Part shown: piece after piece, positions 15,701 through 50,267 of the stretch
Layout of the letters: the number at the start of each line of letters is the position of its first letter
Numbering within the stretch: the first letter of the stretch is position 1
Source: a virus
IMG/VR virus record: IMGVR_UViG_3300008266_000061
Location: 1-59,880 of that record
DNA length: 59,880 nt
Strand: one strand, 5' to 3'
Position numbers and translations under genes: made by a program
The notes under the pieces: model-generated
What the model was told of the DNA's origin: nothing
Seen by the model: only the letters and a program-made list of their open reading frames with translations
Database searches by the model: none

Positions 15701-15706
15701 TTTGAT

Positions 15707-25621: not shown

Positions 25622-26349
25622 CGATAAAGAACATAAAATACATCGCTACCTCTGCCCTGTATCGTCTTGGCAAAAATCCCGTTGGCCGTGAGTTGACGTG
25701 GATGACTCAGGTAGCTATCGACTACTTGAGCGAGAAGAGTCCGCTTGATGGCAACGTAAGCCTTCGGACTATTTACGGCAAGATTGACAACGGTGCGCGG
25801 GTGTTTACCATGCCCGGAGACTGCATCCGTATCTCTAAGGTGGGCTTGAAGTCGGGACGTCGCATTTGGACGCTAACTCCTGACACTTCGCTGACTTATC
25901 CTGAGAACTTCTTCCAATGCGAGAGTGACCAGAATGATGATGTGGTTCTTGACGGCTTTTTCCCGACAGGATACTTCGGGTATTTTTACAACTACCCAAG
26001 CTATACCGTGGGCGGCGGTCGCAACGAGAACTACTACCGAATAGATGGAAACAACATCATATTCAGCCATAGCATCCCGGAGGGACAGCTCGTAATTGAG
26101 TACTTCTCCAACGGCGCGGATGTGAACGAAAACACATTGATTGACACGGCCTACGCCGAGCCATTTCGCTTATATTTGATGAGTGAGTACTGTCTCCACA
26201 AGGGGAACAGTCGGGATCAGTCAAAGTACAAGGAACTACAAATTCAGTACGAGGCTGCTCAGTGGAGTGCGAATCTTTTGGTTAAGGCTCCACGACTCAG
26301 CGAGATGATTGACGCGCTTGCACAGAGTTCAGAATTTAACTTAGGATAA
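25618..26349 (+). CDS. Tail adaptor (gp11/TTPA-like) candidate (243 aa)
   Basis: The architecture, an N-terminal helix (IKYIATSALYRLGKNP), central beta domain, and C-terminal helices (FRLYLMSEYCLHKGNSRDQS), resembles the tubular A/adaptor proteins of short-tailed phages, such as T7 gp11. It immediately precedes the large nozzle-like gene and shares one base with it. This supports podovirus morphology. Confidence 0.65.
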   Translation: MTIKNIKYIATSALYRLGKNPVGRELTWMTQVAIDYLSEKSPLDGNVSLRTIYGKIDNGARVFTMPGDCIRISKVGLKSGRRIWTLTPDTSLTYPENFFQCESDQNDDVVLDGFFPTGYFGYFYNYPSYTVGGGRNENYYRIDGNNIIFSHSIPEGQLVIEYFSNGADVNENTLIDTAYAEPFRLYLMSEYCLHKGNSRDQSKYKELQIQYEAAQWSANLLVKAPRLSEMIDALAQSSEFNLG

Positions 26350-31633: not shown

Positions 31634-31635
31634 AA

Positions 31636-32928
31636 ATGGCAACGCCAATACAAGCAAGAGTGGGGTCTGAGGGCGGTGGTGACGCCACCGTGTTTGACAC
31701 GTCTCAATTTTATACGCAGATGTACAACATCCAGAAGGATGTTTTAAGTGAGCGCGATAAAAAGAAAAAAGAACTTGAGCGACAGCAGAAGACTTGGAAC
31801 GCCCTTTTAGAAGACCCCGGCGATGTTTGGCAGGCGGACTATGAGTATGTTAACAAGGCGGTAAATGAGTACAACGACTATATAATCGACCTCCGCTCCC
31901 AGGGCATCGATCCGGAGACAATGGACGCAAACATAATGCGTAAGATGAAGCGGCTTGAGGGGGAGATACGCAAGGCAACATCTGCCGCTAAAGAAAACAA
32001 GACATACTCCGACCAGTCCTTTAACATACTTAACCAGGACAAGCAAAACAAGTATAATAAAGACTACGCCACCGACTGGTTAAAAAAATATGCCGACCCA
32101 AAATTAACCCCTCAAGACAGGGCAAAAATGCGTATAGAGTCAAACCCGTTCAAGGTTAACTACGACCTGATTGAGTTTACGAAAAATACGATACCAGAAA
32201 AAGAGGTGATTGTGGGCAAGGACAAGAAGACGACGCAGCGAAACAGGGAGGCACATCGCGCAGTTGTGTTGGATTACGTAATGAACGACCCGCAGGGGCA
32301 GGACGTGTATGAGTCGCTTAAAAAACCAAACGAGACAGAGCTAGAGTTTTCGGAAAGGGTAGCGGCAAAGGGGCAGGAACTTTTTCCTGTCAACGAGGAG
32401 CCTATTAAAAAGGGCACCTCCAAGGGTTCATCTAGCGGCACGTCTTCGAGTTCAAAGACAAAAAAGCCGACCGTTAAGGTACAGAGCAGAGACACAGACA
32501 CGTTGGACAACAACGGGCAGCCCAAATATGACCAAAGCCTGTCGTACAACAAGTTGTTGCTTGACAACACACCCCCGGTTTATGTAGTCGCTGATGACGG
32601 CACAACAAGGGTAAAGGACTTCATCCCGTCGGGCGGCTTTAAGATCAGGCCAGATGGCCACGTCGAGGCTGTCGGTGAGGGTAAAAGCGAGGCCGACAAC
32701 AGCTTGGTGGAGGTCACTATAAACTATGGCAAAAACCAAGACCAGTTCAATATAGCCGGATATCCAGACATGTTTGTTGCCTTTCAGAAGGGGAAAAAAG
32801 ATACCGGTTCCAAAAAGACAATTAAAAGATCTGAAATACAAGGCAAGGCAACGGCTGCTGGATATAAAAACGTAGCTGAATACGAGGCTATACTCAAAAA
32901 AAATGGTGTAACAATTACAGAGGATTAA
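31636..32928 (+). CDS. Coiled-coil internal virion protein candidate (430 aa)
   Basis: Residues about 25-130 form a charged coiled coil. A Ser/Gly/Thr-rich linker (about 255-275) separates it from a beta-rich C-terminal region. No enzyme motif is seen. It is co-directional with the other cargo genes and starts 3 bases after the previous stop. Structural or ejection role inferred from context. Confidence 0.55.
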   Translation: MATPIQARVGSEGGGDATVFDTSQFYTQMYNIQKDVLSERDKKKKELERQQKTWNALLEDPGDVWQADYEYVNKAVNEYNDYIIDLRSQGIDPETMDANIMRKMKRLEGEIRKATSAAKENKTYSDQSFNILNQDKQNKYNKDYATDWLKKYADPKLTPQDRAKMRIESNPFKVNYDLIEFTKNTIPEKEVIVGKDKKTTQRNREAHRAVVLDYVMNDPQGQDVYESLKKPNETELEFSERVAAKGQELFPVNEEPIKKGTSKGSSSGTSSSSKTKKPTVKVQSRDTDTLDNNGQPKYDQSLSYNKLLLDNTPPVYVVADDGTTRVKDFIPSGGFKIRPDGHVEAVGEGKSEADNSLVEVTINYGKNQDQFNIAGYPDMFVAFQKGKKDTGSKKTIKRSEIQGKATAAGYKNVAEYEAILKKNGVTITED

Positions 32929-32932
32929 TAGC

Positions 32933-35900
32933 ATGGAAGAAGAATTTGACGAGTTCGGGGTTCCGATTAAGCCGTTGGCCAATGAGTCAAAACCAGCCAA
33001 GCCAACGACCGCTAAGGTCGAGGTCGATGAGTATGGCGTGCCTATAAAAAAAAAAGAGGGTACTACACCAGGTTCAGAGCAGCCTGTACAGCCTTCTGCG
33101 ACGAGTGGCGGTCCTGATCAGGCCTCTGTAGACAAGCAAAAGACACTTCTTAGCAATGTAAAGAGGCTATATAAAAACTTCTTAAATGATGCAGACCAGG
33201 CGTTGAATGACGGCTGGGATGTGGACTATACCAAGAAGCACTTTAGCGACAGGCGCGGCCAAATCAGCAGCATGCTTGACGAGATGGACAGTCTCGGCGG
33301 AGATGACGTGCGTAAGTGGACGTCTGGCATGCGCTCCGCGATGGAGAACAGTCAAAACAATGTTGTCGCCCAGCGTGATTCTTACCTTAGCTACTTCAGC
33401 GACCCGGAAAACTTGTACGCAGAAGATAAAGGCAACAGGGAGTGGTTTTCCAAGAATGTCAAGGAGGTTGAGGGTATTTTAAGTGGCAGACAGGCGGCCA
33501 ACCCAAAGGAGGGTTTGCCGTCCGTTAAGGTGCCCAAAAAGAAAGAGTTTGGCAAGGGAGAGGTTCCGTCGTTACGTGAAATTGTGCAGAAGCCTCAAGC
33601 CGAAATGTTTAAACCGGAAGAGGATGACTACACGAGCGAAAGGTTAAAAATCGCCGCGTATCAGGAGGCTAACGATAAATACAAGGACCTCGTAGGGCTT
33701 ACAAAGAATGTCACGGTAACCACCAACAAGGCTGGCAACACAGAGATCGGTAACGTTGTCGTGGACTATAATCTACTCATCCAGAACGAGGAGATGTGGA
33801 AGAAGTATGTTGGCGAAGATTTGCCGTGGCCAGGTGGCGTATACGAGCCAAACCCACAGAAAAGGAAAGATATACGGCTAGAGGCTGAAAATCGTATCAA
33901 GCAAAAAATTCAGAATGCCAGCGACAATGTAGGCGAAACCCTTGACACCAAGATTATAGACAAGATAGTTGAGGAAAACTTTAACGAGAAAACATTCGCC
34001 CACTTCTTAAAGGCCCCGGACGAAGACATCACGCAAACAACTGTTGACTCCAGCAAGTTGGATGAACAGGTAAGAAAAATAATCGAGCAGTATGGCCTTG
34101 ACCCAAACGGGTCTGCTGTAAGCATCCTGTATGACAAGGCCAACGCTGCGGTACAGAGCCAGTCCACGCAATATGACACCGACGAATACTTTAAAGAGGA
34201 ACACCCGGAGGCGTATGCGCTCAGAGAGAAGTACAAGAGCGGTAAGTTCCAAGAGGAAATAAACGCAAGGTACATATCCGATATAGAGGCGATGTACAGC
34301 CAGTACGAGTCCCAGGCAAACACCGAGATTGACGCTATTGTTTCTGTCGCTAAAAAGCAGGCCGACCAGCTTGCTATAAAATATAACGAGCAGACTGACG
34401 CAATAAAGCAAGAGGTCAAGAAACTGGGTGAGGACTATCAAAACGGCGTCATTGATGAGCTGACCTATAACGACGCTTTCAACAAGTACAACCAACAGCT
34501 TGCTGAATTAGGCGATGCCTTCCAGGCCTTGTTGCCGGACCAGTCCCAGTTGATGGAAGAAGCCAACAAGATATACTCGAGGTACAACAGCACCTTTGAG
34601 ATGAGAAAGGCTGAGATGGTAAAGAGGGCTGACGAGGAGTTGAAAAAGTATGCCGCTGGCATCCCAGAGGAGGACCTCAAGACTATCAACACGGCTTATC
34701 AGATGTCCTTTGACAAGGCAATGTCTGAAAGGAATAGTGAGCTGTTCAAGCAGATGAAGATGACCCAGCAGGAGTCGGTAATCCCGCTGTATATAGCCCG
34801 CCGTTCGTTCATGAACGGGCTAGGTTCGTTTATAAAAAACATAGGCAACTACACTGACAGTCAGGACCTTAAAGTGATGGGTGAGACCATGCAGAACGAA
34901 TGGAGTTCTGCCGCCCCTAAGGTGAAAGACATTGGCTTTAATGCCGACGACTTGTACTACAACAGCCAAATCGCGTTAGGCAACATGGGTGGCAACATGG
35001 CCCCGGCATTGCTTGGCACGGGGCTGGTTAGCTACTTCTCTGGCGGGGCCGCTACCGGACAGGCCGTAACCCTAATGGCTGGATGGGTAGGGAACTGGGC
35101 AAGTGAGACCATGTCAATAGCGGGCGAGAATGGCGCCGCTGTTTTGGCGAAGACTGGCGACGTTAGGCGCTCTGAGCAGGCCGTGTCGAGAAGCATTGAC
35201 GCCCAAAAGGACCTGTTCTTTACATACGCCATAGACGGCCTTCCATTTACAAAGGGCGCATACAGGCTCGTGTCTGGTTGGGGCAAAGGGCTTGGTGCTG
35301 ACATATCGGGGAGGGCCGCAAGGGCTGTCGTTGGCGGAGCTGTTGAGGTGTTACAGGAGACTTTCCTGCAAGAACTGCCACAGAATATTGCCCAAGAAAA
35401 TATAGTAGAGAAAGAACGCGATCCATGGACAAACTTTGGCGAAATGTATTCCAGGGAGCGTATCAAGGAGACCCTTGTGGGCGTTGCACCGATAGGTATC
35501 CTGGGTTTCATTGGCGGCGCAAGGACTGGCTCTTTGGCCCAGCAGCGAGTAGACGAGGCACAGGCGTTTAACGACAAGGCAACCCTTGCCGGTGGGTTTG
35601 AAGACCAGCGACGTCAGTACTTACAGGGGCTTGTGTTTGAAAAGAACGAGAAGTACGCAAGGGGTGTGGTGTCCTCACTGTATGCGACCGGCAACATAGA
35701 CGTCAACGAGGCGGCCCAGATGCAGGAGCAGATTACGGACGCGAACCGGATAAAACTTGCCGCAGACAACGCCAAGCTCAACACAAGCCAACGCAACGTG
35801 TATGGGTTCTTTAGTGCCCGGGCGGACGAGGCAAGAAGGAACGCGGACAAGAACTCAAACGACCCTATCCTCGAGAAGATGTACCGCCAACAACAGGCTC

Positions 35901-37744
35901 AATACGAGCGTGTTGGTGCGGAATACTTGCAGGGAAAGTCGCCAGACATGCTTACGCTTACTTACGCGGACGGCACGTCCATGATGATGACCCCGGAGGA
36001 CGCCAAGGGGCTTAGCGAGAACAAAGATTTTTTAACCCTGTTGGCCAAGAAGCGTGTTAGCGTTTCGGGATACGGCAACACCCAGCCTATACTGGACCAG
36101 TTGCAGACAAGTGTAAACAACCACGAGACGTCTACCACGTGGAAGCAGAAGGCTGAGAAATTGACCGGCATGGTCAAGTCTATAGTTGAGCCACGCAGGG
36201 TGGATATTGAGGATAAAAAGCCTATGCCTACCGAGGCGGCACAAAAGCAGGTTGATCAGAACTACAACAACACTGCGGACCTCTTGAAGGCAATGAAGGC
36301 CGGGGACCAGTTCCTGACGACGGTAATTGGAAACCCCTTGTGGGGCAAGTTGGCTGATGACAAACGGAATGCGATAACTTCGCTTTCTGGCCAGATGGCC
36401 AAAGACCGTCAGTTGATGGCCGACAACGATTCGGAGTCAAACGAGTACAAGCAAGCAAAGGAGAGGATTGCCGCCAATGAAAAGGCGGTCTATGACATAT
36501 TAAACGGTAAAGTAGATGATACGAAAAACATCACGGGGGTACCAGGTCAAGTCGGAGTCGGGCAAAAACCTGTCGAAACCCAACCTGTCGAAGGCGCAGG
36601 CACAGAAACGACTACAACAGGTGGAGTACTTCAAGAAGAAGAAGTAGCCGACCCGCGCCAGAGGGTCTTAAACTCTATCACGGAGCAGGACTTCATCGAC
36701 AACGCCCCGGCCATAACCACCCCAGACATTGAGCGAATCAAGTCAGACGACGCATCTAAACAACAGGCCGCCGAGAAGGCGCGAAAGGAGGCCGAGTCAG
36801 CATATGCTTACCTGGACGGACAGAAGACAGCTAAGGAGTTCCTTGCAGACAACGGCTACGACGTGGAGGGCATGAGCGATGAGGACGCTAAAAAGTATGC
36901 GGACTCTGACGCTGAGTACTGGAAAAACAAGCTCACAGCTGAAGAGGCTAAGGGCGGCAAGAAGCCGACAAAGGCTAAGAAACCGGGCCGCACTAAGGGG
37001 GCTAAGATTGCCCAGAAGGAGCAAGAGAAGATGGACCTGCTCGAGAGTGGTGTGCAGTCAAGCCAGGAGAGGATTAAGCAGCTTATAGCCGAGGGTGCCA
37101 CGCCAGACCAGGCGTATGCCATCACCGAGGCCGAATGGAAACAGACCGAGGACGGCAAGAAATATGTCGCCCTACAGGAAGAAATAGCCAAGATGTCTCA
37201 AGAGAAGGAGCCCGCGCCGTCTCGTAAAAAGAAGGAGCCAGAGCCCCTCAAGATGCCAGAGATCCCAACAGGCGGGCAGCAAAGGATCGCGACAATCAAC
37301 AGCCTTGAAGAGGCCGTGTTTAAGAGCGCGACGGGGGAAAGCGATATGAGCCTTGAGGAGGTGAACCAGGCCCAGGCGACTGTAGCCGAAATGAAGAAGC
37401 AGAACAAGGAGGGTGGATTAAACGAGGCAGAGCTTGCCATGAAGAAGGCGCTTGGCGAGAAGGTTGTCACAAGGTCTGACGTGGACAAAATGGTCAAGGA
37501 AAAGAAGGTGAAGGAGAAGTGTCCTCCTAAATCTAAAAAGGCTGAACACGGCATGTCGTTCGGCTTCAAGCCCGGCGGCAAGTGGCAAGTCGTTAAGAAC
37601 TTTAAAGGCAAAAGCCACGAGAACGGGGGTATAGACATCGAGGTGATTGGCGGCAAGTTGAAGTACACCGACAAGGATGCCAGCACCAAGGCAAAAAACG
37701 GCATGTATTGGACAATGAAGGGTGTCGATAGTGACAAGAAATGA
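32933..37744 (+). CDS. Very large cargo protein, 1603 aa
   Basis: The N-terminus has two EYGVPIK/EFGVPIK short repeats (residues 5-45). A long helical region to about 680 is followed by hydrophobic Gly/Ala-rich segments (about 685-880, including GNMGGNMAPALLGTGLVSYF) that could insert into membranes. More coiled coil follows. Near the C-terminus, GKSHENGGIDIEV matches a motif found at the end of large Bacteroidota phage proteins. It probably enters the host with the DNA and helps build an ejection channel. No catalytic domain identified. Confidence 0.65.
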   Translation: MEEEFDEFGVPIKPLANESKPAKPTTAKVEVDEYGVPIKKKEGTTPGSEQPVQPSATSGGPDQASVDKQKTLLSNVKRLYKNFLNDADQALNDGWDVDYTKKHFSDRRGQISSMLDEMDSLGGDDVRKWTSGMRSAMENSQNNVVAQRDSYLSYFSDPENLYAEDKGNREWFSKNVKEVEGILSGRQAANPKEGLPSVKVPKKKEFGKGEVPSLREIVQKPQAEMFKPEEDDYTSERLKIAAYQEANDKYKDLVGLTKNVTVTTNKAGNTEIGNVVVDYNLLIQNEEMWKKYVGEDLPWPGGVYEPNPQKRKDIRLEAENRIKQKIQNASDNVGETLDTKIIDKIVEENFNEKTFAHFLKAPDEDITQTTVDSSKLDEQVRKIIEQYGLDPNGSAVSILYDKANAAVQSQSTQYDTDEYFKEEHPEAYALREKYKSGKFQEEINARYISDIEAMYSQYESQANTEIDAIVSVAKKQADQLAIKYNEQTDAIKQEVKKLGEDYQNGVIDELTYNDAFNKYNQQLAELGDAFQALLPDQSQLMEEANKIYSRYNSTFEMRKAEMVKRADEELKKYAAGIPEEDLKTINTAYQMSFDKAMSERNSELFKQMKMTQQESVIPLYIARRSFMNGLGSFIKNIGNYTDSQDLKVMGETMQNEWSSAAPKVKDIGFNADDLYYNSQIALGNMGGNMAPALLGTGLVSYFSGGAATGQAVTLMAGWVGNWASETMSIAGENGAAVLAKTGDVRRSEQAVSRSIDAQKDLFFTYAIDGLPFTKGAYRLVSGWGKGLGADISGRAARAVVGGAVEVLQETFLQELPQNIAQENIVEKERDPWTNFGEMYSRERIKETLVGVAPIGILGFIGGARTGSLAQQRVDEAQAFNDKATLAGGFEDQRRQYLQGLVFEKNEKYARGVVSSLYATGNIDVNEAAQMQEQITDANRIKLAADNAKLNTSQRNVYGFFSARADEARRNADKNSNDPILEKMYRQQQAQYERVGAEYLQGKSPDMLTLTYADGTSMMMTPEDAKGLSENKDFLTLLAKKRVSVSGYGNTQPILDQLQTSVNNHETSTTWKQKAEKLTGMVKSIVEPRRVDIEDKKPMPTEAAQKQVDQNYNNTADLLKAMKAGDQFLTTVIGNPLWGKLADDKRNAITSLSGQMAKDRQLMADNDSESNEYKQAKERIAANEKAVYDILNGKVDDTKNITGVPGQVGVGQKPVETQPVEGAGTETTTTGGVLQEEEVADPRQRVLNSITEQDFIDNAPAITTPDIERIKSDDASKQQAAEKARKEAESAYAYLDGQKTAKEFLADNGYDVEGMSDEDAKKYADSDAEYWKNKLTAEEAKGGKKPTKAKKPGRTKGAKIAQKEQEKMDLLESGVQSSQERIKQLIAEGATPDQAYAITEAEWKQTEDGKKYVALQEEIAKMSQEKEPAPSRKKKEPEPLKMPEIPTGGQQRIATINSLEEAVFKSATGESDMSLEEVNQAQATVAEMKKQNKEGGLNEAELAMKKALGEKVVTRSDVDKMVKEKKVKEKCPPKSKKAEHGMSFGFKPGGKWQVVKNFKGKSHENGGIDIEVIGGKLKYTDKDASTKAKNGMYWTMKGVDSDKK

Positions 37745-37791: not shown

Positions 37792-39297
37792 ATGGAAAAG
37801 AAACTGTTAGAAGTAGAAGGTGGAGAGATGGCCATATCCTCATCCAACGGGATCATGGCCATCGTTCCAAAAAACAAGGTTAGTTGGGTTAGAAAAAAAC
37901 TTGACGAGGGTTGCCATGAGTGTATAGACTCGTTGATAGAGACCCTTCCTAGCTTTGATGGGGACGGGCAAATGGCTGAAGATGGGGTTGCCTTAGACAC
38001 AGACCCGCCAAAAAAGAGACTGTTCCGTCGAGACCCACAGCAACTGTTTTACGAAGACGAGACCGAGCCGGGGACCGACACGTATGTGTCCCAATACTCA
38101 ACAAACCCTGTCGAGATAGTGGCCGAGCGCGGGAAGCCAATGAGCGCGTTTCAAAAGGCTATGTCTCACCTCAACCCTAAGAACTGGTTCCTTGAGGACT
38201 ACAGCGACCAGATTACCAAAGACGACGCATACGCTAAGGCACGTGCGGCAGGTCAGGTAGAGTACATGTATCGAGGAAGGCGTTACAACACCAAAATGGA
38301 AGGGACGCCAAAACAACAACTTGAGTGGTCTGGTATAACAGACGAAAGGATACACCGGGGTGTAAACAGACCCGGCGATGGGTTTGGGGTAGGTGCTATT
38401 AAGGAATTTACGGAAGGAAGGCTTGAGGAAAATCTTGACCCCATTAGTTATGAGGACATGGAGTCAAGGTTCTTTAGCACTGTCTTCTTAAACAAAAAGG
38501 AGGCGTCCAGGGTAGCAAGAGATGCCATGGACGAAACTATGGCAAACAGGGCCTACATGGGCCCAAGGACAGACGCTTTTAACCTGTACGTTGGTAAGCC
38601 TCAAAAATATAACACGTTTTCCGTGTCGGACTATAGGCCCTCCAGGGGTAGTGAAAAAGATGCGACATACTATTCATTGAATAAGTTTAAGGAACCCGCA
38701 ATTGCCAGAGACCTTGTTGAAAGATATGAAAGAGACATACAAGACATAAACGACCAGATTGCCTTTAGGAAGTTAACTGAAGACCAGATAAAAGACCTAA
38801 AGAAGCGACATCTATATTTTGAGGACTTGAAAAAGGATGGCGTGATAACGGTTGGTTCGGCAGACGTGAGTGCAACAGTCAGAGACTTGGGAGACTTTAT
38901 TGAGCAATACGACAAGTCTAACCGTTCAATGTCTATGCCACGGGGGCAAATAGAAGTTTTAAGGGATTACGTGAGGCTGATGAATGAGCCAGAGTTGGCC
39001 GAACGAATGGGGAAGGGAGACCTTTCCGAAGAGGACCAAGCGGTTTTGAGAGAGCTAAGAGATTTTGGAGAGACGATGACGGCATATGATCCGGCTACAA
39101 AGTCTTTTAGGTACACCGACTCGGCAGGATGGGCCGGTGTAATGGGCAACTTTAACGTAAGCAAGGGTGTAGACCCGCAGACCGGAAGGGCTTATGTCGC
39201 ATACAGAGACCTGTGGGACTTACAGCCGGCTGACTTTGGTAAGCCTTACGAGATTTATGATAGAATTTATTTGGACCAAATAAAGCCCAGGGAGTAA
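37792..39297 (+). CDS. Cargo-block protein with VEGGE start motif (501 aa)
   Basis: The N-terminus (KLLEVEGGEMAISSSNGIMA) continues a motif that elsewhere directly follows SHENGGI-type sequence, here at the end of the preceding gene. Middle segments (HLNPKNWFLEDYSDQITKDD) and the C-terminal WDLQPADFGKPYEIYDRIY recur, from memory, in other Bacteroidota phage proteins without assigned function. The gene lies between two very large proteins and shares their Lys/Asp-rich composition. Confidence 0.6.
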   Translation: MEKKLLEVEGGEMAISSSNGIMAIVPKNKVSWVRKKLDEGCHECIDSLIETLPSFDGDGQMAEDGVALDTDPPKKRLFRRDPQQLFYEDETEPGTDTYVSQYSTNPVEIVAERGKPMSAFQKAMSHLNPKNWFLEDYSDQITKDDAYAKARAAGQVEYMYRGRRYNTKMEGTPKQQLEWSGITDERIHRGVNRPGDGFGVGAIKEFTEGRLEENLDPISYEDMESRFFSTVFLNKKEASRVARDAMDETMANRAYMGPRTDAFNLYVGKPQKYNTFSVSDYRPSRGSEKDATYYSLNKFKEPAIARDLVERYERDIQDINDQIAFRKLTEDQIKDLKKRHLYFEDLKKDGVITVGSADVSATVRDLGDFIEQYDKSNRSMSMPRGQIEVLRDYVRLMNEPELAERMGKGDLSEEDQAVLRELRDFGETMTAYDPATKSFRYTDSAGWAGVMGNFNVSKGVDPQTGRAYVAYRDLWDLQPADFGKPYEIYDRIYLDQIKPRE

Positions 39298-39319: not shown

Positions 39320-42300
39320 ATGGCAAAAGGCTGCGTTTACATACTACAATCAGGCAAGGATGCGGGGAAAATCTTTGGTTCTAAGGACTCCCTTGCCGCG
39401 CACATGAACTACACCCCGGCCATGGCCGACTTGATGGCCAAGTACGAGAAGACGGGTGGCAAGATGGACGCGGGCAATGTGACCAAGTGGTTGACCGACA
39501 ACGGTTACTTGAAGGCTGAGGCTAAGAAGCCAACTACAACAGGTGAGGATATTAAATCTTTCTTCAGCAATATTGGCAACCAAAGTTTAGCAATCATGGA
39601 AGCCGATATACTTAAAGCTGGTAAGTCTGTTATATCTAATATATCTAAAGCTACTTCTGAGCAAAGAAAAAAAATAGATGCTGATATAGAGCAACTTAAA
39701 AATAAATATCCCGAAAGGAATATTACGAGCAAGGTTGAAAATGGTAATTTAATTGTTGAAAGCGGAGTGGCCGCCCCTAAGACAACCCAAAAGCCAACAA
39801 CTAAGAAAGAGTTCCCAAAGGCCCCGGTCACAGACGCGGTAAAGGCTGCGCTCAAGAGCGTGGACAATACCACGGTGGCCATCATGAACCTGGCAAAGGT
39901 ACTCCCGACGGTATACGAGTCTATCACCAAGCAGGTAAAGACAACCCTTGGCAAGCCTGTCTCACAGCAGGTGGCCGAGGCGTACCACAACGCGGTAGAG
40001 AACGGCGTGGAGCCAGAACTGGTAGCGGCGGTAGAGAATGCTGTAGCATTACAGGAGCAGATGAAGTCCAAGCCAAGCCTGGCCGACGACATCGAGACGG
40101 CAGAGACCTTGGAGATGGACGGCGTGCCTAACGGGGTACGCGTCAGCAACAAGTCGTCTTTGGCCGACCTGGAGCGCAAGCATGCGGGGAACGCCACTAA
40201 AAAGGCGACCATTGCCATGGCCCGTGCGGCAGCCAAGACCCTCAAGTCTGTGTTCCCGATGATGGACATCCACCTGCACGAGAACACCTCCGACTACAAC
40301 AACGCTATGGCTAACCTTGGCGCACAGCAGAACAGCGCGGGTAACTTTACATACAGCACCTCGTCCGATGGAACGGTCGTTGGTCGTATCGACATCAACC
40401 TAAACAGGGCTGTTCCACGCACCGTTGTACACGAGGTGAGCCACGCGATAATGCTCAAAACCTTTGGCGACAGTTCTCCTGCCTTCCTTGAGTTCCGTAA
40501 CAACCTTGAGAAGATAATATCAAAGTCCGGCAACGCGAGACTGTCAGCCTTTGCCGACAAGTACAAAGACATAGCCGACGACATAGGCCAGGCGGAGGAA
40601 TATCTCGCCGAGCTGGCCGGTATACTGTCCGACAAAGAGGCTCCGCTTAGTTATGGCGTGATTCGCCGCATCGCTGAGATGATCAACAAAGCGGTGTCTA
40701 CCATAACCTTTGGCCGTATCAAGCCTTTTGAGGACTTGCAAAACCAGAAGGAGACTCTTGAGTTCTTTAACAGCATTGCACAAAGCATTAAGACCGGTAG
40801 CTCACTTGAAAATCTTATGACGGCCGAGCCGTATAGCACGTCAATAGCTATTGAGGTTGATCCAGATGGAACCTTTACGAAGTCAAGTATCAAGACTAAA
40901 GCGGCAATAGGCGATTACATCATACCCAAGGGTAAGAAGGATTTGGCAATTGCTACCGTGCCTACAAAATCACTTGCGGAAGTTATTAAGGAATACAACG
41001 GTCGTGTGGTAATCATTACTAGCGACGCTACTGGATACGGTGTGGATAGTAAGGGACGTGAGATTTATGGTGGACCTGGGTTTGCAAATAATTTGAAGAA
41101 TGTTCTTGACGAAATTGGTTTTGCAAGTTTGAACATAGGTACGGTTAAGTCAACATATACCGCCGCAGAAAATATTTATGGCCAAGGCAAGACTCTTGTT
41201 TTGATCATGGTTCAACCACCTCATACTACAATAAATAATTCCTATGGTACTCGATACTTCATGGAGTCTCTTGTTAAAATTGCAAAAAACAAAGATTGGC
41301 AAGATGTAAAAAATGATATAAAAACCCGCATTTCAACACTTAATAAAATTACGAATGAGATTGGAGATGAAAATGTTGCAAAAATGATGGCGTTTTTTGA
41401 CAAAATAAATTCAAAGTCAGATCCAGATGCCTTAACTGAGGAGTATCTAAATTTTACAACATTCCCAGCCAGATCTGTAATAGCTAAAACATTGATGTTT
41501 GATCATCCCGGAAAGGGCGTGAGTGTAAATACCGCAAAAAGTAAGTTAGCATTTTTAGATATTGGTGTTACTATTTATGATTTCTTAAAAGAATACGGAG
41601 ATCAAACCATCCTCACAGAGGATATGATGAGGGAGGATATAGGCGGGTTTGTTGTGGCTGGATTTGAAATTGATGTCACGGATAAAGACACTAGAGAAAA
41701 ATTAATAGTTGAGACTCAAGGAAAGGGTATAGCACATCCATTGTTTAATGCCAAATTACCTGGTACTAATCATTTTGTATTAGACGGGCTTTATGGCGTG
41801 AACGAAAACTTTGCCCGCTTTTCAAAAACAAACACTGAAATTGCATTACCAACAAAAGAACGCGACCAAATGGTTCGTGAAATATATACAAAAACAAGCA
41901 ATTATGCTAAACCTATACAAAGTAAAATAAATGCAATAGCTCAAGATCCAGCGTTGTCTGACGAAGAAAAAAATGCTCAAATAGAAAAACTTAAAATTTA
42001 TACGAATCTATCAGTAACTAAAAAAGTTGAGTTTAAGGAAAAGTACTTATCAAAAATAAAAGGTGCTTTAGTTACTGTAATGCCCAATGTAGCAACAAGT
42101 GTTGCACAAGGTATAGGATTTATTCCCGAAAAAGGCGCTGAAAAACGTATAGAAAAAGCAGAATACACAAAATCCAGAGAACTTCCACCGTCAAAGATCG
42201 CAAACAAGGCCCAGATTGCAATCAACGAATACGAAGAGGCGCCAGCCAGCGAGAAGCCGGTACTGAAGAGCAAGGCTCAGCTTGCCGTGTTCGACGAGAC

Positions 42301-45133
42301 AGGCTACGTGTCCACAGAGTTTTGGGTAAACAACTTGAGTGCCAACACCAAGTACCTAGACGGCGTGATCAAGTCCATCCTGGACGCACGCAGTGTACTC
42401 AAGAAGGGGAAGGTAAAGCCGGAACAGGTCGTGAAGGCGTACATGATAACGCTCGGCTCTATGGGCAGCGGCGGCACGTATTATGACAGCTGGAAGGAAA
42501 AGACAGGTCAAACAGTTAGCGACCTATTCTTGGAGAAAGAAAAAGGGCGCGACTGGTTAAGACCGGAAGGTGCAGCCGCCGCATACCTTGTGACAGACGA
42601 AGGTAAAAAGTTAGTGGACGACATGATTGCGGGCACGGCCAGTGCAGTGCAGATTAAAAAACTATTTGACTTTATTGGCGTGGGCCGCGAAACACAAAAG
42701 GCTGGATACGCAATCAAGTCAATGCAAAACGGTGGCATAAAGGCCATGACCGACACGTTCAACGAGAACAAGGGTAAGGACTTCGCTCAGCTGTACCAGG
42801 CCGCTATGGACAACCTGGAGGGTATAGGCGAGGGCAAGACCGGGTTCTTCAACCAGTACTTTGGAGTGTCTGGACGTGCTGTGATTGACGCCCGCGAACT
42901 GAATGCATGGATCGCAGGCAGCATGAAGCTCACCCCGGAGCAGACCAGGGCAAAGGAAAAGGCAGCGTCCAGCAAGGCTATCGGAGACATGCTGTTGAAG
43001 CGTATCGAGGAGGTCGGACTGAAGCTGGGTTACTCTGCGGACATGGCTGGGTACATCGCACACCACGCGATTTGGGACGCTGTAAAAGGATCCGTAACTA
43101 CCCACGAGGGTGAATACGCCGTGGTGTCTGGAAAGGCGCCCATCAAGTCAAAGGTGTCCATCAAGTCGAAGGCACAAATCTTCGGCGAGACAGGAGCCAC
43201 GAGGATGGAAAACGCTGAAAAGGTACTCGATAACCTACAGGTGGCAAGGGACATGGAGGCCAAGTTTGAAAAGGAGGAGCGCACAATGAGGTTTGTTGGC
43301 CCGTCAAAGTCGGCTGAAAACGCTCAGAAGATTAGGCTGGCTACTGGATGGGAGAAGGGTGCAGACGGTATGTGGAGATTGGAGATCCCAGACGGTCAGC
43401 TCAAGCCGATTGACCTTGATAACATGTACAAGGACGGCGGGGTTCCAAAGGCATATCTTGACGAGATATACGACTCCAAAGAACTGTACGAGGCTTATCC
43501 AACCGCAAGGGACCTACGGGTGTCTTTTATTGAGGCCGATGATTATAAGGGATCCTACAATCAAAAGGAAGGTCAAATAGAATTGGCTATCAACAATTTT
43601 GATGAGCCGATGGATATGTTGTCTACTCTACTGCACGAGGTTCAGCACCACATACAGTACGTGGAGGGATTTGCAACAGGTTCAAATACTTCCACTGTCG
43701 TTAATAAGATCATGTCTGAGATTCAACAAATAAACAGACAGATAGATACGGTCAAAAAGGAAAAGAAGGAGCCGGGTGCAGATGTTGGTAAGTTGCAAGA
43801 AAAACAAGCTGTCCTTGAGAACAAAAGCAAAAGACTCAACGAAAAGGTGTCAGAAAGCATCATGGGCGCAATGGCCAGGATGAACGTCGAACTCAAGGGA
43901 CCAGAAGAACAAAGGGCCTTTGTGAACCTGGCACTAAAGGATAGAGACGTACAGAGGGAGTTATATATAAAGGTGGCTGGAGAGGTAGAGGCTAGGAACG
44001 TACAAAAGCGTATGGGCCTTAGCGAAGAGGAGCGCATGAATAAACTCCTATCTTCAACAGAGGACGTCCACAGAAGTGACCAATTGGCTTTGGGAGCCGC
44101 ATTGAAAGGGGAGACGCCAACTCTCAAGTCAAAGGCCCAGATGGCACCCGTAGAGGAGACGGCTAAGGCGTTGGATGAGGTAGGAGAGGCGACTGTTAAG
44201 GCTAAAATAGATAGTTTATCGGAGTCTTTAAAAAAGTCTTTTGATCAACAAAAAGCCAAAATAGAGGCATTAGGAAACGCCTCCACAGATAAGGATTTAG
44301 AATCGTATACTAACTTAAAGTCTGCAAGCAGACAAATTGATCGTGTTGCTAAATACGGATCTTTCCCAATAGGCTACGATACAATAAGAGACGAGTTTTC
44401 AGACGTAGACAAACAAATTGAAAAACCAGAGGCCAAGTATAAAAACGGGAAGCAAATTGGCAAGGAGGATTTTGGTAAAACATATGAGGTTGAAGGCAGT
44501 GGTCTTTTATATAGAGGTGTATCAAAAGCCGATTATGAGAGAATAAATAAACAAGGGTTTATTGATACTGATATGAGGGGTGCAATTAGTCGTAGAGAGG
44601 GTATGAACTTGGCTAAGGATCCTGCAACATCTGCTAGTTACCTCCCTAATAATGCTGGCGGATACGTCATAGCTATAAACCCAAAGGGATTGAATCTTTT
44701 TGGTACAGATGCTGACAATTATATAAGAACACGTGATGTTGTACCTATTGAAAACATTGTAAAGGTTTCTGAGTATATCGCCAAAGATGATATGGGCTCG
44801 TTTTTTATGGATTCAAAACTTAATGAATCTATATCTAACGCCTACTACAAGGCTAAAGAAGACGGCTCCAACCCCGAACTTGTAAAAGCTGTTGAAGACC
44901 TAATCGGTAAGCCAGGACTCAAGACCAAGGCCCAGATGGTGGACAACAACGCCAAGGAGGTAGCCGACCTTTATGCCGAGATGCGTGAGGGTGGTGGATG
45001 GGCTGAGCGCCAAAAAATAAACGCTATTTTGGACCAAGACCCCAAACTATCGTACATTTACAACAACTTTAAGGCCATCACTCAGATGCTCGAGGATGCC
45101 AAACTTTTAACGAAATCCGGTAACTGTCCATGA
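39320..45133 (+). CDS. Polyvalent protein: two metallopeptidase motifs and an ART-like domain (1937 aa)
   Basis: A modular protein. Domain 1 (about 280-460) has HEVSH (371-375), a zinc-metallopeptidase motif. A large segment (525-960) contains SDATGYGVDS and GGPG motifs of unknown role. Then a helical domain (990-1270), a second zincin-like domain with LLHEVQHHIQYVEGF (H1439) preceded by an LPD23-like TGWEKGADGMWRLEI stretch, and an ADP-ribosyltransferase-like domain (about 1725-1820, YRGVS with R1732). KSKAQ-like motifs mark the borders. Such polyvalent proteins are known in phages and conjugative elements and are thought to enter the cell with DNA. Confidence 0.75.
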   Translation: MAKGCVYILQSGKDAGKIFGSKDSLAAHMNYTPAMADLMAKYEKTGGKMDAGNVTKWLTDNGYLKAEAKKPTTTGEDIKSFFSNIGNQSLAIMEADILKAGKSVISNISKATSEQRKKIDADIEQLKNKYPERNITSKVENGNLIVESGVAAPKTTQKPTTKKEFPKAPVTDAVKAALKSVDNTTVAIMNLAKVLPTVYESITKQVKTTLGKPVSQQVAEAYHNAVENGVEPELVAAVENAVALQEQMKSKPSLADDIETAETLEMDGVPNGVRVSNKSSLADLERKHAGNATKKATIAMARAAAKTLKSVFPMMDIHLHENTSDYNNAMANLGAQQNSAGNFTYSTSSDGTVVGRIDINLNRAVPRTVVHEVSHAIMLKTFGDSSPAFLEFRNNLEKIISKSGNARLSAFADKYKDIADDIGQAEEYLAELAGILSDKEAPLSYGVIRRIAEMINKAVSTITFGRIKPFEDLQNQKETLEFFNSIAQSIKTGSSLENLMTAEPYSTSIAIEVDPDGTFTKSSIKTKAAIGDYIIPKGKKDLAIATVPTKSLAEVIKEYNGRVVIITSDATGYGVDSKGREIYGGPGFANNLKNVLDEIGFASLNIGTVKSTYTAAENIYGQGKTLVLIMVQPPHTTINNSYGTRYFMESLVKIAKNKDWQDVKNDIKTRISTLNKITNEIGDENVAKMMAFFDKINSKSDPDALTEEYLNFTTFPARSVIAKTLMFDHPGKGVSVNTAKSKLAFLDIGVTIYDFLKEYGDQTILTEDMMREDIGGFVVAGFEIDVTDKDTREKLIVETQGKGIAHPLFNAKLPGTNHFVLDGLYGVNENFARFSKTNTEIALPTKERDQMVREIYTKTSNYAKPIQSKINAIAQDPALSDEEKNAQIEKLKIYTNLSVTKKVEFKEKYLSKIKGALVTVMPNVATSVAQGIGFIPEKGAEKRIEKAEYTKSRELPPSKIANKAQIAINEYEEAPASEKPVLKSKAQLAVFDETGYVSTEFWVNNLSANTKYLDGVIKSILDARSVLKKGKVKPEQVVKAYMITLGSMGSGGTYYDSWKEKTGQTVSDLFLEKEKGRDWLRPEGAAAAYLVTDEGKKLVDDMIAGTASAVQIKKLFDFIGVGRETQKAGYAIKSMQNGGIKAMTDTFNENKGKDFAQLYQAAMDNLEGIGEGKTGFFNQYFGVSGRAVIDARELNAWIAGSMKLTPEQTRAKEKAASSKAIGDMLLKRIEEVGLKLGYSADMAGYIAHHAIWDAVKGSVTTHEGEYAVVSGKAPIKSKVSIKSKAQIFGETGATRMENAEKVLDNLQVARDMEAKFEKEERTMRFVGPSKSAENAQKIRLATGWEKGADGMWRLEIPDGQLKPIDLDNMYKDGGVPKAYLDEIYDSKELYEAYPTARDLRVSFIEADDYKGSYNQKEGQIELAINNFDEPMDMLSTLLHEVQHHIQYVEGFATGSNTSTVVNKIMSEIQQINRQIDTVKKEKKEPGADVGKLQEKQAVLENKSKRLNEKVSESIMGAMARMNVELKGPEEQRAFVNLALKDRDVQRELYIKVAGEVEARNVQKRMGLSEEERMNKLLSSTEDVHRSDQLALGAALKGETPTLKSKAQMAPVEETAKALDEVGEATVKAKIDSLSESLKKSFDQQKAKIEALGNASTDKDLESYTNLKSASRQIDRVAKYGSFPIGYDTIRDEFSDVDKQIEKPEAKYKNGKQIGKEDFGKTYEVEGSGLLYRGVSKADYERINKQGFIDTDMRGAISRREGMNLAKDPATSASYLPNNAGGYVIAINPKGLNLFGTDADNYIRTRDVVPIENIVKVSEYIAKDDMGSFFMDSKLNESISNAYYKAKEDGSNPELVKAVEDLIGKPGLKTKAQMVDNNAKEVADLYAEMREGGGWAERQKINAILDQDPKLSYIYNNFKAITQMLEDAKLLTKSGNCP

Positions 45134-45621
45134 CACCAAACAAGTTAGATAAAGACGTAGTAGACCTACTGTTGCCTCGCCTCAAGGACGAGTACAACGC
45201 ATTTTATTTTTACCGCGCAGCCAGCAACTGGTGCCAGGGCGTGGGTTACTTCAAGGCCGCAGAGTTCTTCGCAAAGGAGTCTGAGGACGAGCTAGGCCAC
45301 GCAAAGAAGATCGAGCAGTACCTCGTGGACTGGAACGTGGACCCGGAGCTTCCCACCGTGGAGCGTCCGCAGATTGTCTTCTCTGGCCTCATGGAAGTTA
45401 TTGAGAACGCCTACACGATCGAGTACGCACTGTACGAAGACTACGAGGGCACCTCAAAGGAGATGTTCAAGAAGGACCTGTGCGTGTTTGACTTCCTACA
45501 GGAGTTCCGCATGCTACAGAAGCAGTCAGTCGCCGAGTATAGCGACAAACTCAACATGCTCGAGGGTGTGGACGGCAAGGACAAGTTCAAGTTACTTTTG
45601 CTAGAGAAAAAGTTATTCTAA
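45130..45621 (+). CDS. Phage-encoded ferritin (163 aa)
   Basis: The sequence aligns end to end with bacterial ferritin FtnA. The ferroxidase ligands are all present: E21, E54 and H57 (in EDELGHA), E98, and Q130, the last at the same spacing from FDFLQ as Q127 from FNFLQ in E. coli FtnA. It should oxidise Fe(II) and, as a 24-mer, store iron. The start overlaps the stop of the polyvalent gene (ATGA) and the next cargo gene begins four bases after the stop, so it is made with the cargo proteins. Confidence 0.85.
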   Translation: MTPNKLDKDVVDLLLPRLKDEYNAFYFYRAASNWCQGVGYFKAAEFFAKESEDELGHAKKIEQYLVDWNVDPELPTVERPQIVFSGLMEVIENAYTIEYALYEDYEGTSKEMFKKDLCVFDFLQEFRMLQKQSVAEYSDKLNMLEGVDGKDKFKLLLLEKKLF

Positions 45622-45625
45622 TTGA

Positions 45626-48600
45626 ATGGCAAAGAATCCCTGTAAGATATTCTTTAAGGACAAGCCTGGCGGCACCGCCACTGAGTACACTTATGATGAG
45701 TTCATGAGTATGCTCAAGGATGGGAGGTTGATAGACTTTATAAACCAGGGCCTGCTTGACGAGGGGCGCATGCGCGGGGAGAACCCGTTCATCGCGGCTG
45801 AGCCACAGCCGGTGAAGCGAGTCGATTTAAAGTCTATGGTAGGGAAGGGCAAGGCCCTCAAGACCCTGTTGACCAGGGCTGTACTAGGTGACAACGACAA
45901 GCGTATCGTTGATGCCTTACGTAAGACCGGTCTTGACCGGGACATTTTGAAGCTTACCGATGCAAGGGCTCGTGCTGAACAGTTTGTGGAAAAGGTTGGC
46001 TTTGACGCGGCCTACCAGGCGGTGTCTGACCACGCCATGAACCCCGGGGTGGCCTCGTACGTCTATGCAAACCTTATCGACAGGCTAGAAAAGGCAAAGC
46101 TTATTTCGCAGGAAGACAGCGGCATGGACCCACAAGAATATGTGGAGGCTCTAAACGACCTGTACGACATGCAGGCCAAGATGATTGGAGAGTTTTCGGC
46201 CATATCCACCGGGTACGGTCAGTTCATAAACTCACTCAAGGACATCTACCGCAACTCGCTGTTTAACTACAGCCTGGACAACCAGATCAACGAATACAAG
46301 AAGGCTAACTTCAACTACATCCCCTCAGAGGTGGAGGAGAAGTACCGCAAGCTTGACGCGCAGATAAAGGAACTGAACCAGCGCATTTCCGACATGGAGA
46401 AGAGGGCGCAGGACGCGGAAGATGCCAGGAACATGGCCGAGGTACAGGCAGCGGTTGAGGGGGACAAGATTGCCAACATCGACATCAAGGACAGCACAAA
46501 CGACGCTGCCGCTGAGGTGATGAAGTTTAAGGCCAAGTCCGTTTCGTTCAAGGACGCCAACGGGAAGCCTATCAACGTGCCCAAGTCCTCGTGGGACAAG
46601 ATAGTAGAGGCCGCAGCAAACGCGGTAAAGAACCTGACCAACAAGCCGTCGCTTGTGTCAAAGGCAAGCCTTTCCGGTTCCGCATCTAACGCCGCCATGA
46701 ACGCGGCCATTGCTGCGGTACAGGCAGAGCCTTGGTATCAGGCACTCAGCGCGGCCGACAAGAAGGCTGTGGAGGACCAGATAAAGGCGCAGTTTCAAAG
46801 CACAACGCCGGGCAAGATATCGATACCATCCAGCGTAATAAGCAAGGCTATCGAAGACGGCGCTGCCACCATGGACGAACTTGTCCAGGCGGTAAAGGCC
46901 GAGATGTCAAAGAAGTACCCCAACGCCACTGATCGCCAGATCCGTGACGCAATAAGCGGATACGGACGTGAGCGGACCAAGACCAAAACCGACTTGCAGG
47001 TGGAGCTTGCAAGGTTGAGGAACATTGGACGCATGGTGTCAAGGCTTGAGGACATCCAGGCAGGCATCATCAAGGCCAAGACTCCCCAAGAAAAGGCCAA
47101 GCTGACCGATCAAGAAAGTCAGTTGAGGTTGGATATACAGGACGCCTACGAGCGTGAAGGTATTGCCGGCGCACAGCGACTCATAAACGCCAAGGAGAAC
47201 GCCAAGAAGCGAATAGCTGAACTGGAGCGCAGACTTAGCGAGGGGGACTTTAGCAAGAAGGAACGCAAGGAGGCGGTAGAAGACGACGAGCTTCGTCAAC
47301 TCCGGGCAGAGCGCCAGACGTTACAGAACCAGTTCGACAAGGAGCTTGACAGGATCAAGAAACAGAACAGTCCAACCAAGTTTTGGGACGGATTAGGAGC
47401 GTTTTGGGAGATTGCTCGTCTGTTGCAGGCAACCTTTGACTTGTCGATGGTGCTTGTGCAGGGTTTGAAGCTGACCGTGTCTCACCCACTTTATGCCGTC
47501 AGGGGATTCAAAAAGGCGTTTGAACACTTGGCGAGTGAAAGCCGGGCACGTAAATGGGGGGAGTTCATCAAGTCTCAGGAACACTACGAGGAGATGATGA
47601 AGGCCGGACTTTCGTTGTCTGAATACGACGCGTCGTTGTCTGAAAAAGAAGAAGGCTTCTTGGGCGGCGTAGGTAACACGATGTGGGACTATTTGGTCCT
47701 CCCGTTCAAGATGTTTGGTCAGGGCGCATACACCCGGGCGGCGTTAGTAAACCCGTTCAAGGCGTTTGAACGTGCTGGTATCGGATACCTAAACACTATG
47801 CGTGTCCTTAGGTACGAGGATGGTCGCAACATGCTTATGAACGCTAAAAAAGGCAAGACGTTTGAGACCGACCCGGAATCGTTTAAGGCTGTGGCAAACA
47901 TGGTCAACACGTTTACCGGAAGGGCGTCCTTGGGGCCACTAGAAAAGAATGCCGGACTCTTGTCAAAGATATTCTACTCGCCAAAGAACTGGGCCTCTCA
48001 GCTCAAGACGTCTACCATAGGGTTTCCTATATACCTGCTCACCTTAAAAGACAAGGGTACGTTTAAGCCGTCGGTAGCCCAGAAGATGGCTGCCAGGGAC
48101 TTTATATCTTGGTTTATCACAACAACTGGTATAGTGTCTATGATTGCGTTCAAGGCAAACGAGGACGACGAGGATGAGGTTGAGGTAGACCTAAACCCGC
48201 TAAGTTCAAGGTTTGGCAAGATCCGTATAGGCAACATTTACGTGGACCCATGGGGTGGATTTATCCAGCACATCGTTTTACAGGCCCGTTTATACAACGA
48301 GGCAATGGTTCGTGGCGGGGAAGAAAAAAAGCTAGGGGACTACAACACCCCCACAAGGGGCGGGCTGATTGCGGAGTTTGCTAAGAACAAGCTACACCCG
48401 ACCGCTAGTCTTTTGGTTGGATATCTTACCACACACGACGAGGACGGCAAGCGCGTAGACGCATACGGCAACGACTTTATATGGAAGGACGAGATACAGG
48501 AGCGTGTATTGCCCATGATTGGAAGCACGCTTGCTGAGATATTTAAGGAGGAGCCCAACCTCAAGGGGGCATTCCTTGGCGCGTATGCATTCCTTGGCGC

Positions 48601-49132
48601 CGGTGTAAACGTGTACAAGAACGAGAATGTTGCCCCTAAGTACGACAGCCCAGAGACGGCCGGAGTTATGAAGGAGTTCAAGCCTAAGGGTATTCCGGAC
48701 ATCAAGAAGGACACGTTTGCTGTAGAGATGACCCCAGAGGAACTTGTGCAGATCAACGTAAACTATCGCAAGAAGGCGACGGCTCTTATCGACCTATATT
48801 CGGCATCCAAGCCTTCACTCGACGACAAGAAGATGTTCCCGGAGAAGTTCAACAAGGTCACGGAAAACCAACTGGAAGAGGCTCGACTAGAGGCCGTAAA
48901 GAAGGGGACGCCGGAGGCGCAGCTCGACGAGGAGTCTAAGCGCATTGCTATCGAGAAGAAGAAGCGTGAAAAGATATCCGACGACATATCAGAACTGGCC
49001 ACGCTTGGTAAAAACGCGGCAGCATACGAATACTTCAAGTCTCTTGGTAAGCGCATCCCGCCCACGATAGAGGACGCTGTAAAGGAATACGAAAAAAAGT
49101 TGAGTAGTTTACAGAAACAACTGGACCGATAG
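45626..49132 (+). CDS. Large polyvalent-type cargo protein (1168 aa)
   Basis: A helical N-terminal half with coiled coils (about 230-290 and 440-580) and an internal LVSKASL motif near residue 345 resembling the KSKAQ motif of the neighbour. The C-terminal half has hydrophobic helices (about 590-640 and 820-840) and the motif SSRFGKIRIGNIYVDPWGGF (about 859-880), characteristic of an LPD38-like large polyvalent domain. It is probably ejected with DNA and may be membrane-associated. Family name is from memory and should be confirmed. Confidence 0.65.
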   Translation: MAKNPCKIFFKDKPGGTATEYTYDEFMSMLKDGRLIDFINQGLLDEGRMRGENPFIAAEPQPVKRVDLKSMVGKGKALKTLLTRAVLGDNDKRIVDALRKTGLDRDILKLTDARARAEQFVEKVGFDAAYQAVSDHAMNPGVASYVYANLIDRLEKAKLISQEDSGMDPQEYVEALNDLYDMQAKMIGEFSAISTGYGQFINSLKDIYRNSLFNYSLDNQINEYKKANFNYIPSEVEEKYRKLDAQIKELNQRISDMEKRAQDAEDARNMAEVQAAVEGDKIANIDIKDSTNDAAAEVMKFKAKSVSFKDANGKPINVPKSSWDKIVEAAANAVKNLTNKPSLVSKASLSGSASNAAMNAAIAAVQAEPWYQALSAADKKAVEDQIKAQFQSTTPGKISIPSSVISKAIEDGAATMDELVQAVKAEMSKKYPNATDRQIRDAISGYGRERTKTKTDLQVELARLRNIGRMVSRLEDIQAGIIKAKTPQEKAKLTDQESQLRLDIQDAYEREGIAGAQRLINAKENAKKRIAELERRLSEGDFSKKERKEAVEDDELRQLRAERQTLQNQFDKELDRIKKQNSPTKFWDGLGAFWEIARLLQATFDLSMVLVQGLKLTVSHPLYAVRGFKKAFEHLASESRARKWGEFIKSQEHYEEMMKAGLSLSEYDASLSEKEEGFLGGVGNTMWDYLVLPFKMFGQGAYTRAALVNPFKAFERAGIGYLNTMRVLRYEDGRNMLMNAKKGKTFETDPESFKAVANMVNTFTGRASLGPLEKNAGLLSKIFYSPKNWASQLKTSTIGFPIYLLTLKDKGTFKPSVAQKMAARDFISWFITTTGIVSMIAFKANEDDEDEVEVDLNPLSSRFGKIRIGNIYVDPWGGFIQHIVLQARLYNEAMVRGGEEKKLGDYNTPTRGGLIAEFAKNKLHPTASLLVGYLTTHDEDGKRVDAYGNDFIWKDEIQERVLPMIGSTLAEIFKEEPNLKGAFLGAYAFLGAGVNVYKNENVAPKYDSPETAGVMKEFKPKGIPDIKKDTFAVEMTPEELVQINVNYRKKATALIDLYSASKPSLDDKKMFPEKFNKVTENQLEEARLEAVKKGTPEAQLDEESKRIAIEKKKREKISDDISELATLGKNAAAYEYFKSLGKRIPPTIEDAVKEYEKKLSSLQKQLDR

Positions 49133-49619: not shown

Positions 49620-50267
49620 ATGATAGAGCTGATGATCGCGGACCCCACCCCGCACGAATTAGGTGAATATAGAGAACTAATTAAGGAGCTAAAGGACAAG
49701 TTCCCAACCGCAATTGTCATGGTGACAAGGGGCGATGGGGACTACGCTATAAGTACTACAATAATCTACATAGACAGTGAGAAGCGCACAGACACCCATT
49801 CCGCAATTTACCCCTCGGTTCCCAACCGTGGAACCGCGCAAATCAAGGCGGACATTCTCTCCCTTACCTTCGCTATGCGTGAACTTGGGTTTGATATCAA
49901 ATTCCTTGACGAGGATCGGCCAGTTCGTGAGAAGGTTGTCATAACCCGTGGGCGTTTGGACTCGTGTGTTTCCCTTCGCCAACTGGTTGAACTGCTCGAA
50001 GAAGCCAACCACGAGAAGGTTACGGAGGTAAAGGTGATGATAGAGAACAAGCGCAAGAACGGCGGTCGTCCAAGCAAGAAGTCTGTGATTGACTTTATCT
50101 TTTCCGGGCCTAAGGAGGAGCGCAAGCAGCAGCCTGTTCGCACCGGGGCAGAGTGGGCGCGTGTCAAGATGGAATGGCGCGATAAATTTGCCACTTCTAA
50201 GTACGCGAAAATGTACAAAAGTCTCGACGAATTTTGTACCTTCGCGACTGAAGAAGAATGTAAATAA
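49620..50267 (+). CDS. Hypothetical protein upstream of the tail fiber (215 aa)
   Basis: Mixed alpha/beta N-terminal half with a DIKFLDEDRPVREKVVITRG stretch, then a basic Lys/Arg-rich region (about 145-190) containing GRPSKKSVIDF. No family is recognised. The basic region suggests nucleic-acid or partner binding. Its stop overlaps the tail-fiber start by one base, so the two are coupled. Confidence 0.6.
   Translation: MIELMIADPTPHELGEYRELIKELKDKFPTAIVMVTRGDGDYAISTTIIYIDSEKRTDTHSAIYPSVPNRGTAQIKADILSLTFAMRELGFDIKFLDEDRPVREKVVITRGRLDSCVSLRQLVELLEEANHEKVTEVKVMIENKRKNGGRPSKKSVIDFIFSGPKEERKQQPVRTGAEWARVKMEWRDKFATSKYAKMYKSLDEFCTFATEEECK

Follow-up and report, generated by a model that had tools for sequence, protein, structure and literature searches.

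A ferritin of a virus-only clade, with a predicted two-iron centre, is encoded among homologues of large virion proteins

A ferritin gene between two large phage genes

The stretch of viral DNA analysed here, hereafter the window, corresponds to the entire 59,880-base-pair (bp) IMG/VR record IMGVR_UViG_3300008266_000061 and encodes, between two large genes, a ferritin of 163 amino acids (aa). The ferritin open reading frame (ORF) starts with an ATG located within the stop of the upstream 1937-aa ORF (39320-45133), with which it shares the 4 bp ATGA, and ends 4 bp before the start of the downstream 1168-aa ORF (45626). The overlap and the gap given in an earlier reading, made without database searches (the sequence-only reading), are both exact.

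45130-45621, + strand: ferritin; helices 8-38, 41-67, 87-115, 117-143 and 152-162 (helix E); diiron ligands E21, E54, H57, E98 and Q130; Y28

The Pfam family Ferritin (PF00210) matches this ORF with an E-value of 1.4e-19 and 70.9 bits, for a cut-off of 24.5, and the closest PDB entry is the Helicobacter-type ferritin 5c6f (2e-14), with other bacterial ferritins also among the best matches. The AlphaFold2 model, built from 46 phage homologues, reaches a predicted local distance difference test score (pLDDT) of 95.7 and contains the five helices of ferritins; Foldseek comparisons with FtnA and the Helicobacter pylori ferritin gave template modelling (TM) scores of 0.89-0.92. The modelled four-helix bundle, with its long BC loop and short helix E, is that of a classical ferritin of the 24-mer type. 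Sequence and predicted structure together confirm the putative product as a classical ferritin (PF00210, helix E).

Two other identities were rejected. A Dps protein is not compatible with the presence of helix E, the absence of a helix in the BC loop and ligands that are intrasubunit rather than intersubunit. A rubrerythrin is not compatible with a single ExxH (E54-H57) and Q130 in the second position, and the corresponding Pfam match is weaker (25.7 bits).

The iron site

In the alignment with 5c6f, residues E21, E54, H57, E98 and Q130 coincide with the ferroxidase ligands. These five ligands of the diiron A/B site, together with Tyr28, are invariant in 75/75 distinct phage ferritins and in 34/34 bacterial ferritins, and among the phage proteins this invariance holds at mutual identities as low as ~37%. 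The H. pylori row of the alignment was copied from the PDB-match alignment; for Escherichia coli FtnA we used what we take to be its sequence.

The third (C) site of FtnA is formed by Glu 49, 126 and 130, corresponding to columns 53, 129 and 133, at which the window ferritin has D, L and S. All three columns are occupied by Glu in 34/34 bacterial rows, as against 1/75, 0/75 and 0/75 phage rows at columns 53, 129 and 133, respectively. E50 (75/75 phage rows) and E136 (74/75) are found in none of the 34 bacterial rows. The sequence-only reading had aligned the five ligands with the iron-oxidation site of FtnA; their positions stand, but the likeness does not extend to the glutamates of the third site. 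Judging from these residues, phage ferritins have an intact diiron A/B site and have lost the third site and, since all three C-site glutamates are gone, the centre would accommodate two irons, unlike the three-iron site of FtnA. Animal H-chain ferritins function without a C site, so that activity is expected of the phage ferritin, with kinetics unlike those of FtnA.

A clade restricted to viruses

Our tree includes 75 distinct phage ferritins and 34 bacterial ones, the latter being best hits from 395 Bacteroidota genomes, some Bacteroidales ferritins and those of E. coli and H. pylori. The phage ferritins form one side of a branch with a support of 100/100, apart from the bacterial proteins; the phage sequences had been gathered by means of motifs common to them, and the branch between the two groups is long. 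All phage-phage pairs are at least 37% identical and phage-bacterium pairs at most 36% (over at least 100 columns). The phylogeny against bacterial ferritins that the sequence-only reading had proposed as a check therefore separates the phage proteins, and the window ferritin is, on sequence grounds, a member of a virus-only clade, the sampled bacteria being mostly Bacteroidota. The identity ceiling and the single clade led us to reject a recent acquisition from the hosts sampled; sampling outside Bacteroidota is thin, so a donor among other bacteria is possible.

A search with the protein as query retrieved 39 ferritin loci, and a search with an alignment found that at least 164 IMG/VR contigs encode relatives, the best 80 of which were kept for analysis; an approximate Bacteroides sequence served as a query solely to fetch loci. 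Three different queries against 50,697 GenBank phage records gave no match to the phage ferritin, and a scan of 84,980 prokaryote genomes with the motifs of the phage family gave 108 pattern matches and no relatives.

A conserved marker gene located ~4 kilobases (kb) downstream of the ferritin was used to find relatives and to test whether they have the ferritin.

49620-50267, + strand: conserved marker gene (215 aa)

This marker led to 28 loci, and the ferritin is present in 25/25 of those whose records reach the slot. The median ratio of nonsynonymous to synonymous substitution rates (dN/dS) is 0.076 for the ferritin, indicating strong purifying selection. A recent accidental insertion in a single genome, which the sequence-only reading had named as the outcome that would undo its proposal, is excluded by this synteny and by the dN/dS of 0.08.

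The late gene block

The ferritin gene is part of a late block with the following members on the + strand.

13180-15642, + strand: terminase large subunit, at the start of the late block
15698-18103, + strand: portal protein, at the start of the late block
26349-30680, + strand: 1443-aa homologue of gp97 of Cellulophaga phage phi38:1, a virion structural protein
30716-32928, + strand: 305-aa and 430-aa ORFs in the slots of phi38:1 gp99 and gp100, assigned by position alone
32933-37744, + strand: 1603-aa protein whose N-terminal 52 aa are 44% identical to phi38:1 gp101, recorded as structural
37792-39297, + strand: 501-aa protein
39320-45133, + strand: 1937-aa large polyvalent-type protein directly upstream of the ferritin, with an LPD23 domain and two HExxH motifs
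44996-45130, + strand: conserved C-terminal tag of the 1937-aa protein, ending in Cys-Pro
45626-49132, + strand: 1168-aa large protein directly downstream of the ferritin
45626-45784, + strand: conserved N-terminal module of the 1168-aa protein, MA..C...Y.Y.EF...L..G

PHROG family matches were obtained for both the terminase and the portal. Terminases of Flavobacterium and Maribacter phages show 24-26% identity to that of the window, phages of Cellulophaga and Tenacibaculum also gave matches, and the primase bears a BT4734-like domain; the host is likely a member of the Bacteroidota, as far as sequence similarities tell.

Residues 272-496 of the 1937-aa protein are homologous to gp18 of Flavobacterium phage elemo, which is recorded as structural. 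No match to the 1168-aa protein was obtained among GenBank phages; its close homologue directly downstream of the ferritin in locus L002 weakly matches phi38:1 gp101. The structural labels of elemo gp18 and of phi38:1 gp101 and gp97 were taken from public records, and gp101 goes unmentioned in a recent proteomics paper on phi38:1. The ferritin gene thus lies within a late block and adjoins homologues of structural proteins, a placement that counts among the marks of virion ejection or cargo proteins. There is good support for its being expressed late along with ejection-type proteins, timing and translational coupling being deduced from its position and from the ATGA overlap. Of the phage cargo operon that the sequence-only reading had described, the single late block with homologues of recorded structural proteins is borne out; in the window phage and its clade, neither a leader nor a packaging signal was recognised on the ferritin.

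Elsewhere in the 1937-aa protein, residues 1333-1597 match proteins of Pseudomonas phage AF and of a human faecal phage, and the two HExxH motifs are metallopeptidase-like.

The ferritin at the split of a giant virion-protein homologue

In elemo (locus L290; NC_055854.1), gp18 is one continuous ORF of ~3,695 aa. The upstream neighbour of the ferritin in L066 and L068 aligns with gp18 as far as residue 2041 and the downstream neighbour from residue 2074 onwards, while the gene preceding the upstream neighbour matches residues 1529-1662. L085 and L087 are likewise collinear with gp18, but the matches are small. Since what the flanking genes encode forms part of a single giant structural protein in ferritin-free isolates, the ferritin is located at the split of a virion-protein gene; by this collinearity, it occupies the division point of a giant virion-protein homologue at least in these four loci. 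The correspondence of gp18 to two or three genes in relatives indicates that these giant virion proteins are divided in some lineages and fused in others. In three other loci (L091, L096 and L097) the ferritin is found two genes before the terminase, and the gene directly upstream of it in L097 matches gp18.

In 43 of the 45 loci that are not of T4 type (L002-L097), the gene immediately before the ferritin is an ORF longer than 500 aa. The bodies of the neighbouring proteins vary widely or are swapped between loci. Their ends facing the ferritin are conserved in part: the upstream tag (with Cys-Pro or a similar end) and the downstream MA..C module, which no Pfam family matches, are both present in 28 of the 45 loci and both absent from the other 17. 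The two may interact with each other. A role of the Cys-Pro tag as a general ferritin-docking signal was rejected because the tag goes with the MA..C module and 17 ferritin loci do without it. Its presence or absence switches only five times on the ferritin tree, which leaves too few independent pairs for a test. A search for ferritin-free relatives by means of the tag found none, 21/21 loci being on contigs already known to carry the ferritin.

The late blocks of two loci (L014, 4296-4598; L021, 4549-4851) additionally encode a 100-aa protein with a CTGCGACC motif that resembles YkgJ-type zinc- or iron-chelating domains. Such a CxxCxxCC gene was seen near the ferritin in these two loci only and not in the window.

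T4-type relatives

The second group of ferritin-bearing phages is of T4 type, with some contigs of 95-256 kb. The gp21 protease was detected in 7/13 and gp23 in 6/13 of the records examined, several of which are fragments. The ferritins of this group cluster together in the tree (96/95) and adjoin either uvsX/gp41-like genes, identified by eye, or genes whose products have short leader-like N-termini. Several carry N-terminal extensions themselves. Leaders resembling the capsid-targeting sequences of T4 (for the principle, see PMC9026906) are found in 28/127 genes near the ferritin versus 24/195 elsewhere (p = 0.03), a weak indication. The strict leader motif occurs in only 3/24 T4-type ferritins, and a capsid-targeting leader on the ferritin itself was therefore not accepted.

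Many unrelated small genes in T4-type loci (L022, L030, L101, L110, L113, L116 and others) open with short sequences such as MKLIDILKE or LIREEVRKVLKE that resemble the capsid-targeting sequences of T4, such leader-like starts amounting to ~16% of N-termini versus 2.4% at internal Met. By analogy with T4, these leader-bearing genes could possibly represent a large set of internal head proteins.

Possible roles of the phage ferritin

We consider it somewhat probable (about 0.55) that this phage-only ferritin is catalytically competent, is made late together with the flanking ejection-type proteins and protects phage DNA from Fenton chemistry. The ferritin would be produced late in infection, alongside the large ejection-type virion proteins encoded on both sides, and would most likely form a cage inside the infected cell, as suggested by helix E. 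Its two-iron centre, judging from the ligands, would bind and oxidise Fe(II), to be stored as a ferric mineral. Fenton reactions on the concentrated phage DNA would thereby be deprived of their Fe(II) before and during packaging; the protein may also hold iron for the phage. The biological purpose is deduced from the chemistry of ferritins, and shielding of phage DNA from Fe(II) late in infection would be the simplest one. The maintenance of the ferritin in two lineages with different neighbours, in some cases near uvsX/gp41-type genes, fits a role inside the cell. Two observations weigh against this protective role: DNA protection alone does not explain the fixed slot between ejection-type genes in non-T4 phages, and the loss of the C-site glutamates may give the enzyme kinetics unlike those of FtnA.

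It is this slot that makes delivery by the virion attractive, although we regard it as clearly the less probable explanation. Ferritin subunits would be packaged with the flanking ejection-type proteins, refold in the next host and begin to capture Fe(II) within the first minutes of infection. The position at the split of a giant structural-protein homologue and the polyvalent-protein features of the neighbours speak for this, as do the N-terminal extensions and leader-enriched neighbours in T4-type relatives (with gp21 and gp23), and crass-like phages are known to eject partly unfolded cargo proteins (PMC10136315). The tail channel of crAss001 is narrower than 50 Å (PMC10136315), too narrow for a 24-mer cage, so that delivery would require unfolded subunits; moreover, the ferritin of the window clade has no leader, strict leaders are rare on T4-type ferritins, and some of the latter are encoded beside replication genes. 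It is equally tentative that a ferroxidase without the third iron site resides inside the particle and is injected with the genome, capturing or disarming the Fe(II) of the host as infection begins, in which case virions would carry protein-bound iron.

The ferritin could instead be an auxiliary gene that keeps the host alive or stores iron for iron enzymes of the phage, its place in the late block being just a tolerated boundary. The boundaries of modular large genes tolerate insertions, the neighbours here are freely swapped, and ferritin-like proteins of phages have been interpreted as oxidative-stress genes (PMC6802176, PMC8008677, PMC6669764). Such genes come and go, however, whereas all 25 relatives retain the ferritin in place while its neighbours change, and the phage-only clade has no recent host donor in the sampled genomes; we thus find this explanation improbable. 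It is very improbable that the protein is a structural or docking element of the particle for which iron chemistry is irrelevant. The slot between modules with conserved Cys-bearing ends, the lost C site and the fixed, phage-specific E50 and E136 would suit such an element, but it would not require the invariance of the diiron ligands and Tyr28, and the Cys-bearing ends are missing from 17 of the 45 loci.

Comparison with known systems

The phage ferritin shares with FtnA proteins (E. coli, 1EUM; H. pylori, 3BVE and 5C6F) the four-helix bundle with helix E, the diiron A/B ligands and the conserved Tyr, and differs from them by its low identity, the lost C-site glutamates, the phage-only E50 and E136 and its separate clade. 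Phages phi38:1 (Pervagoviridae) and elemo (Elemovirus) resemble the window phage in gene order, which runs from the terminase and portal through the capsid region and a gp97-like protein to a giant last gene, and have homologous structural proteins; unlike in the window phage, no ferritin was found in their records in the search of GenBank phages.

Ferritin was named in one sentence among the reactive oxygen species (ROS) defence genes of freshwater phages in 2019 (PMC6802176). Those ferritins very likely belong to the same family as the window protein; the paper reports their presence and a role against ROS, and no analysis of clade, slot, iron site or neighbours was seen in it. A fragment annotated 'Ftn ferritin-like protein' from an uncultured Caudovirales phage (A0A6J5MFB8, in BFVD) is 48% identical to the window ferritin. 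Gut phages carry Dps and Mn-catalase (PMC8008677) and Lactobacillus phages carry Dps (PMC6669764), which are also ferritin-superfamily proteins proposed to limit oxidative damage; they represent other branches of the superfamily, whereas the window protein is a helix-E ferritin with an intrasubunit diiron site. In the Vi01-like phage Sajous1, a putative ferritin (gp217) encoded in a tail-protein operon is present in virions and was linked to the Ferrojan Horse idea; the assignment relies on a fold match (Phyre2, 22% identity), and iron-uptake mutants were infected normally (PMC10892097). Sajous1 gp217 is another proposed virion-linked ferritin. In the open-licence literature, to which our search was limited, nothing was found on phage ferritins together with ejection proteins. 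While ferritin in phages was already known, the virus-only clade, the altered iron site and the fixed slot among virion-protein genes appear to be new.

If our interpretation is correct, some tailed phages keep a long-established iron-oxidising protein of their own, made with or inside the particle, rather than borrowing one occasionally from their hosts. Two questions would become testable, namely whether phage DNA is held back by Fenton damage during the late phase of infection and whether particles contain protein-bound iron, as in the Ferrojan Horse idea. The phage ferritin would also offer enzymologists a natural variant with a two-iron centre.

Replication genes of the window

Outside the late block, the window encodes a 161-aa protein (6728-7213, - strand) with a DnaA C-terminal DNA-binding domain (PF08299, E = 7e-17), located near the BT4734-like primase-helicase (7991-9931). 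This proximity suggests that the phage may use a DnaA-like mode of origin recognition.

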